Of a stretch of DNA of 64,000 nt, positions 33,074 through 63,352 are shown piece by piece. Each line of letters opens with the position of its first letter. Position 1 is the stretch's first letter. Made by a program: the position numbers and the translations under genes. Where the stretch lies: NCBI RefSeq assembly GCF_038396675.1, contig NC_088922.1:13123501-13187500 (forward strand), given 5' to 3'. Under the pieces are notes generated by a model. It ran no database searches. It was not told the origin of the DNA and worked only from the letters and a program-made list of their open reading frames with translations. This stretch comes from Hydra vulgaris. Taxonomy: Eukaryota; Cnidaria; Hydrozoa; Anthoathecata; Hydridae.

Positions 33074-34497
<1,424 letters not shown>

Positions 34498-47574: not shown

Positions 47575-47732
47575 GTCATGTATATAGATATAATGCAGTA
47601 ATGTATTTACATAATATGATATACTACACAATATATATTTAAAATCAATTGCTTATAATTATTTGATAGTCAATATTATTTTATTTGTATTTTATGTATT
47701 TAGTAATCTTTCAAAACAAAAATTACTATATC

Positions 47733-50231
47733 ATGCCTTTTAAATGTTGTGTGACTGGTTGTAGAGGAAACTATGATAAAGAACATAAAGTTAAACTTTT
47801 TCGATTACCAAACAAAAACCGTAATCCTCAAGAAAGAGAAAGATGGATTAGATCTATTCCAAGAGAAAACATTCCAAATAGTCCAAATACATTCATTTGT
47901 GAAAATCATTGGCCAGTTAATTATGAAACTTGTCAAATTCATGGTAAAATTCGTCCCTTAAATCCACCAACTATTTTCATCTGTGTATTTCAAAGTCAAA
48001 TTCCTACACCTCCACCAACAAAAAGAACAACAACAAAATCACTACCATCTACGCGTAACATGAAACCTGATGAAATTTCAGCTCACTTGGATTTGTATGA
48101 AATTAGTTGTTTTGATGATCTTTGCCTAAAAGTAAGCAAAGAAGTTATTCCATTTCCAGTAACATCTTTTACAGTGGATGATGGTTTAATAATCCAAAGT
48201 AAGGATTATATTGATACCTCTGCTATTCCACAGTTTCTTTTAAAAGTTAAAATTGATATGCGATTTGAAGGTTTTCATTTTGGATCTAGATGCTCTATTA
48301 TACCACTGTGCAGTAATCGAATACATAAAATTACATCTTTCTTACAAATTTTAGAAGCTATTAGATATTTACATTCCGTTGAAATGGATCATAAAAAAAA
48401 CATTATCCTACAACAAGTTGTTAGCATGCATGCATTAACATTTGTTGGTAATAAAAAATATTCTCCAGAAATTCTAAGTAGGGCTTTTGAGTATTTTTCA
48501 ATTTCAAGATCTCTTTACAGTCGTATTAGAGATGACTATGAAATGCCAAGTATTGTAACACTTGGTAAACTTATATCTAAGGTTAGTAAGCTAGAGGATT
48601 TTGATTTCCTCAACAAATATTTTATGCAACTAGAAGATCCTCGTCAAAAAAATGTAATTATTATAATCGATGAAGTTTATGTAAAACCACAACTAACGTA
48701 TCAAGGAGGTAACTTATTTGGAAAAGCAGTAAATAATCCAGAACATTTTGCAACCACTGTTTTGAGTTTTATGATTTGCTCATTATTAGGAGGAAAGAGG
48801 TTTTTGTACAAAGCACTGCCAGTGTATCGTTTAAGTGCTGATTTTCAATATGAACAAGTTGTAAATATGTTAAATTTGATTCGTTCATGTAATGGCATTA
48901 CTGTTGCAATTTTATGTGATAATAATAAAGTAAATCAATCATTCTTTAAAAAATTCAATTTGATTTCTCCATGGCGCACAACTGAAAACATTTTTTTGCT
49001 CTATGATTATGTACATCTAATCAAATCTATCAGAAACAATTGGTTAACTGAAAAAATGCAAGAGTTAAAGTATTCTGACTGCGGCCTTGAAAAAACTGCA
49101 AAGTGGGTTGACTTGAAGAAGCTGGTTGAGTTAGAAAATAATTCTATTGTGAAACTATCAAAGCTTAATGAAATTTCTATCTGTCCAAAACCTATAGAAC
49201 GACAGAATGTTGCTTTATGTCTTAAGATTTTTTGTGTTGAAACGTTAACTGCATTAAAAATTCATCCAGAAATTCAGGATTCAGGTGGAACTGTTGATTT
49301 TATAGAAAAAATTGTAGACTTTTTCAAAATCCTAAATGTAAAAAGTCAGTTCGAAGACGTTAAAACTAAAGACTTAAAAAGGGCTGTCTTTGATAACCCT
49401 AACGATCAACGATTAGATTTTTTACTTGATATAGCAAGTATGTTTGAAAAAATGGTTCCTAAAAAACAAGGACAAAGAGTAAAACAACTTACCAAAGATA
49501 CTGCTCTTGCTCTTGCATACACGAGTAGAGGACTGGTTGAGTTAACTAAGCATCTCCTCAGCACTTCACACGAATATGTATGTCTAGGAAATTTTTCTAG
49601 TGATCCCATTGAAAAAATGTTCAGTAAGCTACGTCAAGGTTCTGGTGGAACATATTTTATTAATGTTCAACAAGTTTTACAAAAAGTAAACATTAAGAAA
49701 ACAAAGCTTCTCCTTGATTTAAACACAGATTTTGATGGAATTCAAACATGTTGTGAACATGCTTGTTTGAAATGTGGATTTTTGCTAAATGATGACAATA
49801 CCTTCAATGTGTTTCATAATCTTTCAAATATGGAGTTAGCCTTGTCTAAGTCTGTAAAAATGGCTTTAGTTTATATTGCAGGATACATCAGTAGAAATGA
49901 TGTAGATGAATATGATACGCAGTTCTATTACAACGAATTTGGAGAATTTACTAAAGAAATCAACAGAGGAGGCTTGAAGATACCTGGAGACAATATGTGT
50001 CAATGGGTGATTTATTGCTATGTATTTTTTCATCACATCATGTCATCAGTTTGTAGGACAAGTTTTATAAATATAACAATGATGGTAGCAGAATTTTATG
50101 GATTTGAAAACATAGATAAGTTTCATGGAAAAATACTATCTAACATATTATTTAACAACTATAGCAAGCTTTACTCACCTCGATCGACAAAAGAACCAGC
50201 TTTAAAAGTACTTAAATTGTCACAAAAATGA
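47733..50231 (+). CDS. P element transposase (THAP9-like), full length, 832 aa
   Basis: The ATG at 47733 is chosen because THAP domains start MPxxC; open codons upstream lack similarity. Residues 1-82 form a THAP zinc finger: MPFKCCVTGC, W38, C56 and H59 in FICENHW, and the PTIF ending. A linker is followed by an RNase H-like core: IIIIDEVYVKPQLTYQG (around residue 312, first acidic site), AILCDNNKVNQSFFKKF (around 394), LLYDYVHLIKSIRNNWL, then an insertion domain probably binding GTP, and GNFSSDPIEKMFSKLRQGSG (around 622) with the final catalytic Glu, as in NQDSLENFF of P transposases. The frame is uninterrupted and length fits the family (750-900 aa). It cuts and pastes the P element using GTP as cofactor; whether it is active is untested. 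Confidence 0.92.
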   Translation: MPFKCCVTGCRGNYDKEHKVKLFRLPNKNRNPQERERWIRSIPRENIPNSPNTFICENHWPVNYETCQIHGKIRPLNPPTIFICVFQSQIPTPPPTKRTTTKSLPSTRNMKPDEISAHLDLYEISCFDDLCLKVSKEVIPFPVTSFTVDDGLIIQSKDYIDTSAIPQFLLKVKIDMRFEGFHFGSRCSIIPLCSNRIHKITSFLQILEAIRYLHSVEMDHKKNIILQQVVSMHALTFVGNKKYSPEILSRAFEYFSISRSLYSRIRDDYEMPSIVTLGKLISKVSKLEDFDFLNKYFMQLEDPRQKNVIIIIDEVYVKPQLTYQGGNLFGKAVNNPEHFATTVLSFMICSLLGGKRFLYKALPVYRLSADFQYEQVVNMLNLIRSCNGITVAILCDNNKVNQSFFKKFNLISPWRTTENIFLLYDYVHLIKSIRNNWLTEKMQELKYSDCGLEKTAKWVDLKKLVELENNSIVKLSKLNEISICPKPIERQNVALCLKIFCVETLTALKIHPEIQDSGGTVDFIEKIVDFFKILNVKSQFEDVKTKDLKRAVFDNPNDQRLDFLLDIASMFEKMVPKKQGQRVKQLTKDTALALAYTSRGLVELTKHLLSTSHEYVCLGNFSSDPIEKMFSKLRQGSGGTYFINVQQVLQKVNIKKTKLLLDLNTDFDGIQTCCEHACLKCGFLLNDDNTFNVFHNLSNMELALSKSVKMALVYIAGYISRNDVDEYDTQFYYNEFGEFTKEINRGGLKIPGDNMCQWVIYCYVFFHHIMSSVCRTSFINITMMVAEFYGFENIDKFHGKILSNILFNNYSKLYSPRSTKEPALKVLKLSQK

Positions 50232-56141: not shown

Positions 56142-56336
<195 letters not shown>

Positions 56337-56470: not shown

Positions 56471-56579
56471 CTGAAGTAGTCGAATAAGATAACTGAATAC
56501 TAATTTGTTGAGAGCTGGTAGCGAGTTAACTATATTTAAGCACACTTCTGTACTGTCGCAGTTATGTATGCATTGATCA
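56471..56579 (-). CDS. ARHGAP39: ARHGAP39-like, fifth recognised exon
   Basis: It encodes (Y)DQCIHNCDSTEVCLNIVN then SLPALNKLVFSYLIRLLQ, the helical middle of the RhoGAP domain. The donor GTAAAAG at 56470 is U2-type. Its upstream junction is unusual: there is no AG; the intron ends in AC at 56580, and the first base T completes the Tyr codon begun as TA in the previous exon. Confidence 0.9.
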
Positions 56580-56787
56580 GTAGAAATTAATTAAGAAATA
56601 ACGCATAACACATTTTAAAAATATTATTAATTTCTAAAGAGTAGGGAAATAAGACCCTACAGAAAAGAAAAAATTTCTTGATAATTAAAATAAAAAAAAA
56701 TCAAAGAATGTTTCATTTTACATTTTTATACCGTTGCGTTTTTAAATTTCGCTAATTTTACATAGAAAAAAAAAATCGAAAAGATAT
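56580..56787 (-). other. U12-type AT-AC intron in the RhoGAP coding region
   Basis: On the - strand the intron starts ATATCTTTT (56787 down; U12 consensus ATATCCTTT) and ends TTTCTAC at 56580. TTTCTTAAT (56598-56590) matches the U12 branch site TTCCTTAAC with the branch A about 11 nt from the 3' end. Removing these 208 nt restores RF-Y-DQCIH, exactly the conserved EFYDQCI-type sequence; no GT-AG choice does. Such introns are removed by the minor spliceosome. Confidence 0.85.
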
Positions 56788-56966
<179 letters not shown>

Positions 56967-57297: not shown

Positions 57298-57455
57298 CTA
57301 AAAATGCCTTCTGTCTGAAGACCATTATGCAACAAAATAGCTTCAGTCAACGTTGTTAATATCCAAGGAAGTCTATTTTCAGGAAAATGCTCTGCTTGCA
57401 TTTCCATTATATCGTCTAGAGTGTTGCCAAACATTGAAGGGTTAAAGACCCGTTT
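57298..57455 (-). CDS. ARHGAP39: ARHGAP39-like, third recognised exon (RhoGAP start)
   Basis: It encodes KRVFNPSMFGNTLDDIMEMQ, AEHFPENRLPWILTTLTEAI and LLHNGLQTEGIFR, the start of the RhoGAP domain; the Arg of GIFR is the arginine finger that inserts into the GTPase active site. Acceptor TTTTTAG at 57456; donor GTGTGTT at 57297. FNPSMFG is the conserved MyTH4-RhoGAP linker. Confidence 0.93.
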
Positions 57456-57639
57456 CTAAAAATATTATTAAGAAGTTTAATATTTTGATATAATTTTATT
57501 ATGTTAAATATCACGATACATTTTTTATTATTTAAGATAAAATCAAATATTCTTCGACGCAAAAAAATAGTAAAAAAGTAAATTTCTTGTCCTAAAATTA
57601 AATGTTGTTAAAGTAAATATCTTGTCTTAAAATTAAATG

Positions 57640-58160
57640 CAGGCCTTAAGACCTATAACTTTTGCATTTCTCAATCTCTAACTCAAATAGTCAACTTTCC
57701 GACTCGTTTTCCAAAAAATCTGAATCATTTACCTTCTCTACTCAACTTATGTCTCGTTTCTGATTCTAGTCAGTGCTCAGTTTTCCACATTGACCCTTAG
57801 GTGCTCCTGATCACAGTTTGATATCTCTAAAACTATTATCTCATTCTTCTTTATCATCAGAATCCCCCTATCATCGTATCTCTTACAAATACCTTAAAGC
57901 TGACTGGGACTCTTTCTTTGATTTTCTTTGTGATGGCCCTTGGGTAAAAATCTTTTGTCTTGCTGCTGACAAATTTGCTTCTTAAATAATTTCTTGAATT
58001 TAGGCTGGCATGGAATCTTTGATTCCTTCTCGATAATTCCAAGTCAAGTCTCACTCTTCTCCTTGGTTTACCTCACATTGTGCTGCTGCAATTTCTAATT
58101 GAAACCATTGCTTCCATATCTATCAGTAAAACAATTTTCCAGAAAACAGACGTCTGTTTA
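57640..58160 (+). pseudogene. LINE endonuclease/linker part (same family as 22125-25500)
   Basis: Blocks: GAPDHSLISLKLLSHSSLSS, YKYLKADWDSFFDFLCDGP, AGMESLIPSR, FQVKSHSSPWFTSHCAAAIS and ENRRLFTT. They correspond one to one with the - strand copy at 24065-23658. Stops interrupt it. It is broken at ENRRLFTT by the antisense LINE 58160-58745 and resumes as NHCKIVLSNAKA at 58750. Confidence 0.75.
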
Positions 58161-58746
58161 CTACTTATTTTTTTTTTAACATCTTCGCTTCCAACAAGGC
58201 TGCAAGCAACCACTAAATAAAGTTGGAAGTTACTTGAAGAGAAAAGATGAAGATTGTAGAGCAAGATAACGATTGACAGACAACTTAAAGGATTGCAAAT
58301 TATATGAATCAGAAAATCAATATGAAGAAAGCGAATTCCAAAGAACTGATGTTGTAAGAAAAAAACTAGACAAATAAGAGTTTTTGGAGCACTTAGGAAC
58401 AGTCACAGAAAAAGGATGAGACTAAATTGAATGGCGAGTAACAATAGAATGAATTTTAGTAGATGGCACAAGAGACGCTTGTTCTTTAGAGCAGTGCCCA
58501 TTATAGAATTTGTAGAAAAGAGAAAGAGAAGCAACATTACGACATTGTGATAATGGTTGAAGGTTGGCTGCTAGAGCAGGTCCAACTATGTTTACAATGT
58601 ATTTTTGCACTTTGTCTAAAAGAGAAAGGGCATCATTAGAAGATCCACCCCAGATATGGCAACAGTATTCCAAACAAGGCCGAATTTGAGATTTATAGAG
58701 ATAGAGAATAGAATCTGGAGTAAGAAAGTGTCCACTATTGCTAGAA
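58160..58746 (-). mobile_element. 5'-truncated LINE inserted into a LINE of its own family
   Basis: On the - strand: HFLTPDSILYLYKSQIRPCL, EYCCHIWGGSSNDALSLLD, KVQKYIVNIVGPALAANLQP and LVPSTKIHSI, the C-terminal end of the same LINE protein, here in antisense. A poly(T) run at 58168-58177 is its poly(A) tail. The interrupted host LINE reads on across it (RRLFTT, then NHCKIVLS), and the same segment exists in sense orientation at 60690-61100, so it is a separate insertion. Confidence 0.75.
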
Positions 58747-59971
58747 ACCATTGTAAAATAGTTTTGTCTAACGCCAAAGCCTGCTATTCTTGAGTCATGA
58801 AATCTTGTATTTCATCTCAGATGTTAAGCTCTCGTAAGTTATGGAGAAGCTTTAACAGTATCAATAATAAGGGCAAATCTGTTATTCCACCTCTCTTGTA
58901 CGGTTCAGATTTTGTCAATCACAAAGACAAAGCAGAATTGTTTGCTAAGAACTTTACATCAATAAAACCTCTTGATTCCACTAGTTGCGTTCTACCTGAT
59001 ATTGCCAACAAACAGGTTGGTCCATTGGTTGACATTCATATTGCTCCAGCTTTGGTATCTGAAGTGATTTCCTACTTAAACTCTTCTACAGCTTGAGGCC
59101 CAGACAACATACCTGTTGTAGTCGTGCAGTGTTCTCCAGAGCTGTTGTCTATACTTTTAAAACTATTTAACAAGTGCTTATTGGAGTCTTGTTTTTCAAC
59201 ATGCTGGAAAGCGGTATCTATTATCCCTATTTGCAAAAATTCTGGAGAGCGATCAAACCTGTCTAACTATGGTCCCATTAGTCTTCCTATCATAAGCAAG
59301 GTTTTTGAATCTTTAATTAACAAACACTTAATCTCTCATCTTGAATATAATAACTTTCTGATCATCAATAAGAACTTCGATCTTCTCGTTCTACAGCAGA
59401 TTTGCTAACAGTAATAACCCATAGATTCTATCATACATTAGATGGAGGTGGAGAGGTTAAGGCTTTCGCTCTTGACGTTTGTAAAACTTTTGAAAAAGTT
59501 TGGCGTGCTGGTCTTCTCCATAAGCTTTCTCCTTATAGTGTATCAGGTAACATCTTTAAGATTATTGAATCCTTCCTTTCCAATTGTAGTATAAAAGTTG
59601 TCCTTGATGGACAGCACTCTTCTTCATATCCTGTCACTTCAGGGGTTCCTCAAGGTTCTATTCTTGCCCCTATACTCTTTTTAATTTACTTTAATGATCT
59701 TCCAGATATTCTCACATCTAAGGTGGCATTGTTCGCTGATGATACTACCATTTATTCTTGTATTGATAAGAAGTCAACACTCTCTGATCTTTTGGACGGG
59801 CATTTGAGCTTGAAAAGGATCTCACTTCTAATACAGCATAGGGCTCTTTGTGAAACTTTAATTCAGATAAAACTCAAATTTTTTCAGCCAATCGTTACTG
59901 TAATAATTTAGATCCTTTTATATTTATGAACGGTAATGTACTTGATGAGTCATCTACCCTTCATCTTCTGG
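58747..59971 (+). pseudogene. LINE reverse transcriptase, first part
   Basis: NHCKIVLSNAKA, MLSSRKLWRSFNSINNKG, YGSDFVNHKDKAELFAKNF, SGERSNLSNYGPISLPIIS (YRPIS changed to YGPIS), ALDVCKTFEKVWRAGLLHKL (AFDKVWH block, catalytic D changed to E), SGVPQGSILAPILFLIYFND and KVALFADDTTIYS. Frameshifts and a stop near 59095 interrupt it. It is cut after SSTLHLL by the MITE at 59972. Confidence 0.8.
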
Positions 59972-60539
59972 CAGGCCTTGTTTTAAATAAAAAATGCTTA
60001 TTTTTAAGAATAAAAAAAATTTAAAGCAAAAAAATCGATCATTACAATAAAAAAAATAAATTATAAACTAATAAAATAAATTATAAACTACTACATAGAA
60101 ATTTAAATAAATTATTTTAAATGCAATCAAAAGCTGAATAAATATTCTTTTGCTCTCAAGATGATAAATAAATGTTTTTATCATGTTTTTATTCTTTAAT
60201 GGATTTTTTTTTTACATTCTGATTAATAACTTTGCATAAAAAAAAAAATTGCCGTTATCTATAAACAATTTTGTTTTCTGTTCAATAAAATAATTAGTTT
60301 AATAGAGATTTTCATAGTTTTCGTAGTTTTTAATTTTATTTGAGTTTTTTCATTAGTAAATAGCGCTTATATCTAACATAATTGTCATTTAAACTTTTTT
60401 ACATACTTCTTTTATCTTACCGCTTATAGAATAATTTAAAAGTTAAAAAATGATGAAAAGTTGCTTAATGGAAATTGCTCTAGGCGTACGTAACATGTAA
60501 ATAAATTGCCGGCAGCTTAACCCTTTAAAAGAAGACCTG
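59972..60539. mobile_element. hAT-like MITE, 568 bp, inserted in the LINE
   Basis: Ends CAGGCCTTGTTTTAAA and, inverted, CAGGTCTTCTTTTAAA (13 to 14 of 16 identical). The LINE frame breaks at CTTCTGG and resumes at TTCTAGGATTAGCTC; the uninterrupted copy at 22490 reads CTTCTAGGAT, so TTCT(A)GG is the target duplication, with one base lost at left. No coding capacity. Confidence 0.65.
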
Positions 60540-61190
60540 TTCTAGGATTAGCTCTTACTTTCGATCTTTCTTGAGAACCATATATCAAATCCATTGCAAA
60601 ATTAGCATCTGCTAAGGTTGTACCTCTTTATCGTGCTTGACGCTTTCTTACTCCGGATTCTATTCTTTATCTCTATAAATCTCAAATCCGCCCTTGTATG
60701 GAATACAGTTGCCATATCTTGGACGGATCTTCCAATGATACCCTCTCTCTTTTAGACAAGGTACAAAAATGCATTGTAAATATAGTTGGACCTGCTCTTA
60801 CAGCCAACCTCAAACCATTATCACATCGTCATAATGTTGCTTCTCTTTCTCTTTTCTACAAATACTATAACGGGCACTGCTCCAAAGAGCTAGCATCATT
60901 TGTGCCATCTACTAAAATTCATTTTTGTCTTTCTCGTCAATCAATTAAGTCTCATCCTTTTTCTGTGACTATTCCCAAGTGCTCCAAAAACATTTATTTG
61001 TCTAGTTTTTATCCTAGAACATCAGTTCTTTGGAATTCGCTTCCGTCATCTTGCTTTCCTGATTCATATAATTTGCAATCTTTTAAGTCTGTCAATCATT
61101 AACTTGCTCTATAAACTTCATCTTTTCTCTTCCAGTAACTTCCAACTTGAATAGTGGTTGCTTGCAGCCTTGTTGGAAGCACATTTAAAA
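60540..61190 (+). pseudogene. LINE reverse transcriptase, C-terminal part
   Basis: Continues the 58747-59971 copy: RPCMEYSCHILDGSSNDTLS, LLDKVQKCIVNIVGPALTAN, FYKYYNGHCSKELASFVPST, then FYPRTSVLWNSLPSSCFPDS, the WNSLP signature at the end of LINE proteins. The 3' UTR ends GTGGTTGCTTGCAGCCTTGT near 61170, the same end as the antisense copy. Confidence 0.8.
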
Positions 61191-61597
61191 ATAAAATAAA
61201 TGTCAATGCAAACTATTTTAAAAAAAGATTTTCGTTGACCCCCGTGACTTAAAAGGGTTTAAAATGCAAGTTTCCATAAGTGAAAAAACATAAAAAGACT
61301 AAATGACATTAACAAAGTTATCTAACAACCACACACTTCAAACCACACTTACCGCCATCAAAACCAAACCAAATTGAGAGTTTTTATATATGCAAAGAAT
61401 TGTGTCTGAAAAACTTTGTTACAGACAATAAGTCTAATAACTTTTAAAGCAACTCTTTGTTCAAATGTTTTACTGACATTTTACGTGTTCAAAATTCACA
61501 ACTTCTCTTACATTTAGAAAAGAGAAGTCAATGAGTGTCGAAGAATGAAGAAAAGAAAAATTCTATACAATTATTGTAAGTATTGTAAGTTTAAAGT

Positions 61598-61790
61598 TAG
61601 TTACATATAGTTAAAGTTAATTGCAGGTAGTTACACATAGTTAAAATTAATTGCAGGTAGTTACATATAGTTAAAATTAATTGCAGATAGTTACATATAG
61701 TTAAAATCAATTGCAGGTAGTTACATATAGTTAAAATTAATTGCAGGTAGTTACATATAGTTAAAGTTAGTTACAGCTAGCTAGAAGTAG
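61598..61790. repeat. Tandem repeat, about 30-bp unit, six copies
   Basis: Units contain TAGTTACATATAGTTAAAAT and TAATTGCAGG. Looser copies of TAGTTACAG and AGCTAG follow to about 61920. Confidence 0.85.
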
Positions 61791-62342
61791 GTAAAGCTAG
61801 TAACACTTTGTAAACTTGGTTTCAGCTAATTACACTTATCAGTTAATTACAGCTTGATAAACTAATCACTGTTAGTTATAGCTAATTACACTTCTTATAG
61901 CCAGGTACAGCTAGTTTATTTATCACCGTTAACTTAATAGCTTTATGCTAATATTTTATAAAACATTTTTAGAAATACTTGATTTTTAAAGATTCGGATT
62001 TGTGTCATAGTGGTGTTTTATGGAGTAATAGATATTATAGAATCTTATAATATCTCTATAATAAATTATATCTATAATATTTATATATTAAAAGATATGT
62101 AATCTTATAATATTTCTTTAATAAATATTAATTATTTCTATGATATATAATATAGAAATGGCTTAATAATTATCTATTTCAATTTTTATTAAACATTTAA
62201 TATTTTCTACTTCTATATTTCTTGTCATAAAATATTCTATTAAACAAATCTATTTTTAAAGTTTTAAATCCTTAAAAGTTTTTGCTGACGGACTAAAACG
62301 GTCATTATAGAACTGAGTCAAAAAAGAAGCTAAAAAAAAAGC

Positions 62343-62465
62343 CATAAACTTGTTGTGACAAAATTGTGTCATCAACTTGTTGCATCAAATTGAGTGAACA
62401 ACTTGTTGTATCAATACTAAGTCATAAACTTTTTGTGTCAATATTGAGCCATCAACTTGTTTTGA
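62343..62465. repeat. Tandem repeat, about 30-35-bp unit, four copies
   Basis: Repeated CATCAACTTGTTGTGTCAA with TTGAG/AAGTCAT spacers. Confidence 0.75.
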
Positions 62466-62509
62466 TGATTAAGAGCAATCTTAATTGAGACTTAAATTTA
62501 GCCAGAAAA

Positions 62510-62612
62510 CCCAGTGGGTACGTTTTTAAAACATTCTTTGGACGTTTTTATTAGGTTTAAACCTTATAAAAACGTTTAAAAAACGTTTTAAAAACGTACC
62601 GTGCCCACTGGG
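62510..62612. mobile_element. Small MITE, 103 bp, CCCAGTGGG ends
   Basis: CCCAGTGGGTACGTTTTTAA at left is mirrored at right with a 5-nt indel (CCCAGTGGGCACGGTACGTT inverted). The interior is itself rich in ACGTTTTTA-type palindromes, so nearly the whole element can form a hairpin. Similar CCAGTGGGCAC repeats are known to me from other invertebrates. Confidence 0.65.
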
Positions 62613-62734
62613 AAGTAACTTGTAGCGCAGTGACACGGTTAGCATAGATCTTGCAATTGAGAGTTAGTATTACTGGATTCAATTTGTATATTTCCTAACA
62701 AACAAATTTTTGTACCAAAATGTTGTTTACTTAC

Positions 62735-62848
62735 AATTGCAGATTTAATTTCATCTATTGTTGGTCCTTTCAGTCCACGTTTTGCACCAGTTTGACAAAT
62801 TCTTTCTAGTTGTTTGTAGCAATGTTTTGCATACAAATCTAAACGCAC
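62735..62848 (-). CDS. ARHGAP39: ARHGAP39-like, second recognised exon (MyTH4 end)
   Basis: It encodes VRLDLYAKHCYKQLERICQT then GAKRGLKGPTIDEIKSAI, the C-terminal part of the MyTH4 domain (YAKYCHRRLER..TG.RRG...P). Acceptor TTTTTAG at 62849; donor GTAAGT at 62734. Both junctions are phase 0. MyTH4 domains bind microtubules and act as a unit with neighbouring domains. Confidence 0.92.
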
Positions 62849-63211: not shown

Positions 63212-63352
63212 CGTTGTATGGTTTTCTTCGGGGTCCAGATGTCTGTAGATATATCCTTCTAAGTAAGCGTGAAACTTGCTTGAAGGCGGGAAAATTGATA
63301 GACATGATGTAATTAACTCCCAACCTCGTGTTAAACTAGCTCTAAATAGAAA
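63212..63352 (-). CDS. ARHGAP39: ARHGAP39-like, first recognised exon (MyTH4 core)
   Basis: It encodes FLFRASLTRGWELITSCLS then IFPPSSKFHAYLEGYIYRHL and DPEENHTT. RGWELL..CL..FPPS..F..YL..YI is the hallmark of MyTH4 domains. Acceptor GAACAG at 63353; donor GTGTGT at 63211. Forty-seven codons, both junctions phase 0. Further 5' exons must lie beyond 64000. Confidence 0.9.

Follow-up and report, generated by a model that had tools for sequence, protein, structure and literature searches.

A probable U12-type AT-AC intron within the RhoGAP domain of a Hydra ARHGAP39/Vilse-type gene, and a divergent U6atac in the same genome

Here we describe a 208-nt intron with AT-AC ends that interrupts the RhoGAP domain of an ARHGAP39/Vilse-type gene on the minus strand of the window, by which we mean the whole 64,000-nt stretch of Hydra DNA analysed. 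Judged from its sequence, the intron very probably belongs to the U12-type class and would be removed by the minor spliceosome; this is what the sequence-only reading of the same DNA had proposed, and the published donor rule, the branch distance, the minor snRNA genes of the genome and the pairing potential of their U11 and U12 products all support it. If the intron is of this type, the host gene would depend on minor splicing. Checking the intron against the species' own snRNAs also exposed an altered U6atac, which is the larger point and a lead that would raise the interest of the locus. The features discussed below are collected in Table 1.

Table 1. Coordinates of the intron, its signals, the exons of the gene model and the altered snRNA gene; positions are those of the window unless a contig or locus is named.
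Feature	Position	Strand	Basis or remark
AT-AC intron	56787..56580	-	208 nt, phase 2
Donor ATATCTTTTC, matches the U12-type consensus except for T in place of C at +6	56778..56787	-	sequence, published rule, own-U11 pairing
Branch-site motif TTTCTTAAT	56590..56598	-	sequence; own-U12 pairing
3' splice site AC	56580..56581	-	sequence
Rival in-frame GT-AG intron, would delete FYDQCIHNCDS	56553..56793	-	enumeration, domain score
MyTH4 exon	63212..63341	-	PF00784 match
MyTH4 exon	62735..62848	-	PF00784 match
First exon of RhoGAP part (KRVFNPSMFG...EGIF)	57298..57455	-	reading frame, domain match
RhoGAP exon preceding AT-AC intron	56788..56940	-	reading frame, domain match
RhoGAP exon following AT-AC intron (T-DQCIHNCDS...)	56471..56579	-	reading frame, domain match
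Final coding exon, carries stop	56142..56336	-	reading frame
U6atac gene with changes in the 5' splice-site box and the U12-facing word	C12:9139923-9140049 (L002:1501-1627)	+	RF00619 match, alignment

The AT-AC intron and its host gene

Six C-terminal exons form one open frame of 285 aa up to the stop codon, encoding a MyTH4 domain (PF00784, 56.0 bits) and then a RhoGAP domain (PF00620, 104.3 bits); this order at the C terminus supports the earlier assignment to an ARHGAP39/Vilse-like RhoGAP gene. The remaining four introns of the model all start with GT and end with AG. Two WW-like segments lie on the same strand, some 13 to 15.5 kb upstream of the first modelled exon (locus L006). Joined (80 aa), they match PF00397 over two stretches (E 3.5e-5; 24.2 bits, curated cut-off 26.9), while taken singly neither reaches 1e-3. 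ARHGAP39/Vilse has the make-up WW-WW-MyTH4-RhoGAP. The gene appears to be single copy, because the eight whole-genome matches of its RhoGAP part comprise the four exons of the gene itself and four weaker RhoGAP-like frames on contig C14 (25-28% identity). No retrocopy revealing the spliced junction was found among these eight, and six peptide patterns from the RhoGAP part had no match in the viral contigs scanned.

Several other features of the region were observed. The MyTH4 and RhoGAP exons are separated by a 5.3-kb intron (57456-62734) with open reading frames that look, by eye, like reverse transcriptase (58422-58811 on the minus strand, 59372-59911 and 60641-61102 on the plus strand). A run of N of about 5 kb, either a gap in the assembly or withheld sequence, lies inside the gene just upstream of the window (L005:2-5053). 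Elsewhere in the window are a long open frame of 342 aa for a mariner-type transposase, matched by HTH_48 and Transposase_1 (33148-34176, minus strand), and an open frame of 853 aa that carries THAP and TNP-like transposase domains (47670-50231, plus strand).

Read on the minus strand, the 5' end of the AT-AC intron is ATATCTTTTCGA and its 3' end TTTCTTAATTAATTTCTAC. Its removal joins the exons as CGG TTT TA/T GAT CAA TGC ATA CAT, or R F Y D Q C I H, in phase 2 on both sides, and the flanking exons then read ...PLIPQRF-Y-DQCIHNCDS.... The placement is unambiguous, since sliding either end alters the product. The sequence-only reading had named a U12-type donor, a second motif about 11 nt from the 3' end and a terminal AC, and had held that splicing yields RFYDQCIH with fitting phases; all three signals were confirmed in the sequence, as was the junction, across which the 285-aa frame stays open. 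The donor ATATCTTT conforms to the rule for U12-type donors stated in PMC2846911, RTATCCTT with a single C at +5/+6 free to be T. For the branch site we looked for a motif close to TTCCTTAAC, and TTTCTTAAT is such a motif; within its AA, the second A is 11 nt from the final base of the intron, inside the optimum of 11-13 nt between branch and 3' splice site (PMC3584512). Minor introns avoid phase 0 (PMC10639083), and phase 2 fits that tendency.

The window is about 29% G+C, and the motifs taken alone occur at chance level. The combination of ATATCYTTT, branch motif and AC at 50-1000 nt is found once in the window, compared with 0.8 for each simulated window (in 47 of 100 simulations the count is at least as high), and a looser donor with branch motif and AC is found five times, compared with 3.1 (23 of 100). 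Window-wide motif statistics were rejected as proof of a U12-type intron, being at chance in so AT-rich a window; the case therefore rests on the exact position of the signals, at a junction whose product regains the family sequence. By arithmetic from the simulations, the donor motif would fall on any one chosen position with a probability of ~5e-5, and a branch motif would lie in range with one of ~3e-3; by the same kind of arithmetic, the chance of finding these signals at a family-restoring junction is ~1e-7 for that placement and ~2e-6 over 14 placements.

Alternative splice pairs and rival explanations

We enumerated splice pairs for introns of at least 30 nt, taking donors from 60 nt into the upstream exon and acceptors up to 20 nt before the end of the downstream exon. 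Across five dinucleotide types, 50 pairs are in frame and free of stops (19 AT-AC, 16 AT-AG, 7 GT-AC, 4 GT-AG and 4 GC-AG). The four GT-AG pairs remove 11, 23, 31 and 43 residues, so the earlier statement that no GT-AG alternative restores the frame was wrong as worded; none of these pairs, however, leaves the RhoGAP domain intact. Among the five isoforms scored against the RhoGAP model, the AT-AC product has 105.3 bits, an AT-AG product 94.7, a GT-AC product 94.2, and the GT-AG products 56793/56552 and 56829/56552 have 91.4 and 73.5 bits (losses of 13.9 and 31.8 relative to AT-AC). Placements with any ends that preserve length and are free of stops number 14, and among them only the AT-AC ends are known to be usable by a spliceosome. 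The junction residue is free of gaps in the five alignments shown of the 29 solved RhoGAP sequences that were matched.

It could be argued that the AT-AC intron is removed by the major (U2) spliceosome, as introns with these ends and of that class do exist; Wu and Krainer reportedly described them in 1997. U2-type AT-AC introns have an ATAAGT-like donor, but the donor here is ATATCTTTT, which is not of that form, and a U12-type branch motif stands at the right distance from the 3' end, so that we consider removal by the major spliceosome improbable. It is harder still to credit that the locus is decaying and that the intron is no longer usefully spliced. Such decay would sit well with the reverse-transcriptase-like remains seen by eye in the 5.3-kb intron, but the reading frame is open through all six exons, the domain scores are good, and no second copy was found that could take over.

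A further possibility is that the main product arises through the GT-AG pair 56793/56552 (ACG/GTTTTA ... CGACAG/T), removed by the major spliceosome, so that FYDQCIHNCDS is left out, or that this form exists as a minor isoform. The pair is in frame and stop-free, but the 11 residues it drops fall in a segment alignable with solved RhoGAP chains, its domain score is lower, and its GTTTTA deviates from the donor consensus GTRAGT given in PMC6259924; we regard either version of this proposal as unlikely. The reading favoured here remains that of a U12-type AT-AC intron.

Minor snRNA genes and a divergent U6atac

A search for minor snRNAs had been suggested by the sequence-only reading as a check, and we ran it with covariance models over the whole genome (G000; 911.5 Mb in 15 contigs). 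Each of the four RNAs gave one match among the first-look candidates scored: U11 on contig C12 (97.4 bits, above cut-off; 40 of 122079 candidates scored), U12 on C3 (88.0 bits, above cut-off; 44 of 86599), U6atac on C12 (90.2 bits, gathering score 33; 46 of 28207) and U4atac on C4 (52.4 bits, 0.6 below the cut-off of 53; 49 of 59971). Three thus lie above their cut-offs and U4atac just below, and the same searches found no match in 14 control genomes. All four genes (loci L001, L002, L003 and L015) are preceded, at a distance of about 46-63 nt, by a common element, CCA[CT]AAGTA, of which the 128000 positions of the window's two strands hold one copy; it is probably the proximal sequence element of this species. 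The window itself, scanned at Rfam gathering score and for tRNA, gave nothing. Among other cnidarians, all four minor snRNAs are reported from another hydroid, Hydractinia (PMC11067881), and a high density of minor introns from Acropora corals (PMC10639083).

The intron could pair with these RNAs to different degrees. At the branch site, all eight positions pair with GUAAGGAA of the species' own U12 (six Watson-Crick and two G-U) with the branch A bulged. Donor positions +4 to +10 pair with the own U11 at six of seven positions in the usual register (four Watson-Crick, two G-U) and at all seven in a register shifted by one (six Watson-Crick, one G-U), where the C at +10 lies opposite the G that starts the U11 Rfam match. 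With U6atac, for which a sole match was found, donor positions +2, +4, +5, +9 and +10 form Watson-Crick pairs, +8 a G-U pair, and +6 and +7 are unpaired; +3 pairs with neither the own nor the consensus U6atac. Duplex-energy shuffles were set aside as proof of pairing, being weak: the observed energy was reached in 180 of 2000 shuffles for donor/U11 and in 765 of 2000 for branch/U12.

The order of the steps of minor-spliceosome assembly is known from the general literature, and applied here it suggests the following course. In the U11/U12 di-snRNP, U11 would recognise the donor, the GAAAAG at its 5' end in this genome pairing with CUUUUC, and U12 would recognise the branch site, its GUAAGGAA pairing with UUUCUU-(A)-AU around the bulged adenosine. 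U4atac/U6atac.U5 would then join, with U6atac subsequently replacing U11, and splicing would link TTTTA to TGATC to give ...PQRFYDQCIHNCDS... within the RhoGAP domain.

The canonical core of U6atac is GGAGAGAAGGTTAGCA. The Hydra match spans the 126-position RF00619 model end to end, and its 5' splice-site box reads GCCGAGA, not AAGGAGA; the complementarity expected of this box towards a U12-type donor breaks down. Relative to the consensus, the +5 pair with the donor is kept, those at +6 and +7 are lost, and +8 becomes G-U. The word that faces U12 is half changed as well (CCGG, consensus AAGG), and two of the four tested pairs between U6atac 20-23 and U12 4-7 are lost, in a helix register that is our own reading and is not taken from a paper. 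The changes at 12-14 and 20-21 have no matching changes in U12 or in the donor of the AT-AC intron. U4atac (L015:1503-1515) and U6atac (L002:1535-1547) do form an exact 13-nt duplex, which falls to 7 nt if the consensus piece replaces either partner; thus the two RNAs depart from consensus in a matching way. Because it retains this exact U4atac complement and the shared upstream element, the U6atac locus does not look dead.

These sequences raise the tentative and, in our view, rather doubtful suggestion that the minor spliceosome here runs with a rewired but functional U6atac, such that recognition of +6 and +7 would rest on U11 alone; with a U6atac of this kind, the tolerance of T at +6 in the donor would be accounted for. 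In CHO cells, suppressor mutations show that pairing of U6atac G14/G15 with +5/+6 supports splicing (PMC4980772). A rewired U6atac, if true, would bypass a pairing that those mammalian-cell tests have shown to matter, and if the divergence is both real and functional, the need for pairing between U6atac and donor could be tested in a natural system. No report of a changed U6atac appeared among the listed open-licence papers on U12-type splicing and minor snRNAs in Hydra and other cnidarians.

Comparison with known systems

STK11, which carries a known U12 intron, was tried as a control. In the best match in the genome, a single open frame accounts for residues 1-172 of the 173-aa query; the region is intronless, and STK11 therefore provides no U12-intron control. 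The matching STK11-like kinase (C10:23793809-23794324, plus strand, L016) is 71% identical to the human fragment within a single frame of 439 aa, and is possibly a retrogene. ARHGAP39 was not found as a minor-intron host in the open-licence literature searched. One paper naming both ARHGAP39 and U12 was rejected as unrelated, being single-cell methods work by its title and the start of its abstract.

Intron F of P120/NOP2 has AT-AC ends. The D1S1 intron of sodium/calcium channel genes is a further U12-type AT-AC example (PMC6259924). On the signals in its sequence, the Hydra intron is most likely genuine and one more U12-type intron of this known kind, useful because the domain it interrupts is the catalytic one of a Rho regulator and cannot be obtained intact with any ordinary splice-site pair. 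It shares with animal U12-type AT-AC introns the AT-AC ends, an ATATC-YTTT donor, a TTYCTTAAY-like branch motif and a short distance from branch to 3' splice site, and differs from them in having T at +6 and, at two places in the branch motif, T for C. Its host resembles ARHGAP39/Vilse in carrying two WW-like segments, MyTH4 and RhoGAP in that order, the C-terminal end lying inside the window, but its WW match falls under the Pfam cut-off. The U6atac match in this genome, finally, resembles RF00619 in its full-length match, its 13-nt complement to the own U4atac and the upstream element it shares with the other minor snRNA genes; it is otherwise well conserved, but has GCC for AAG at positions 12-14 and CC for AA at positions 20-21.
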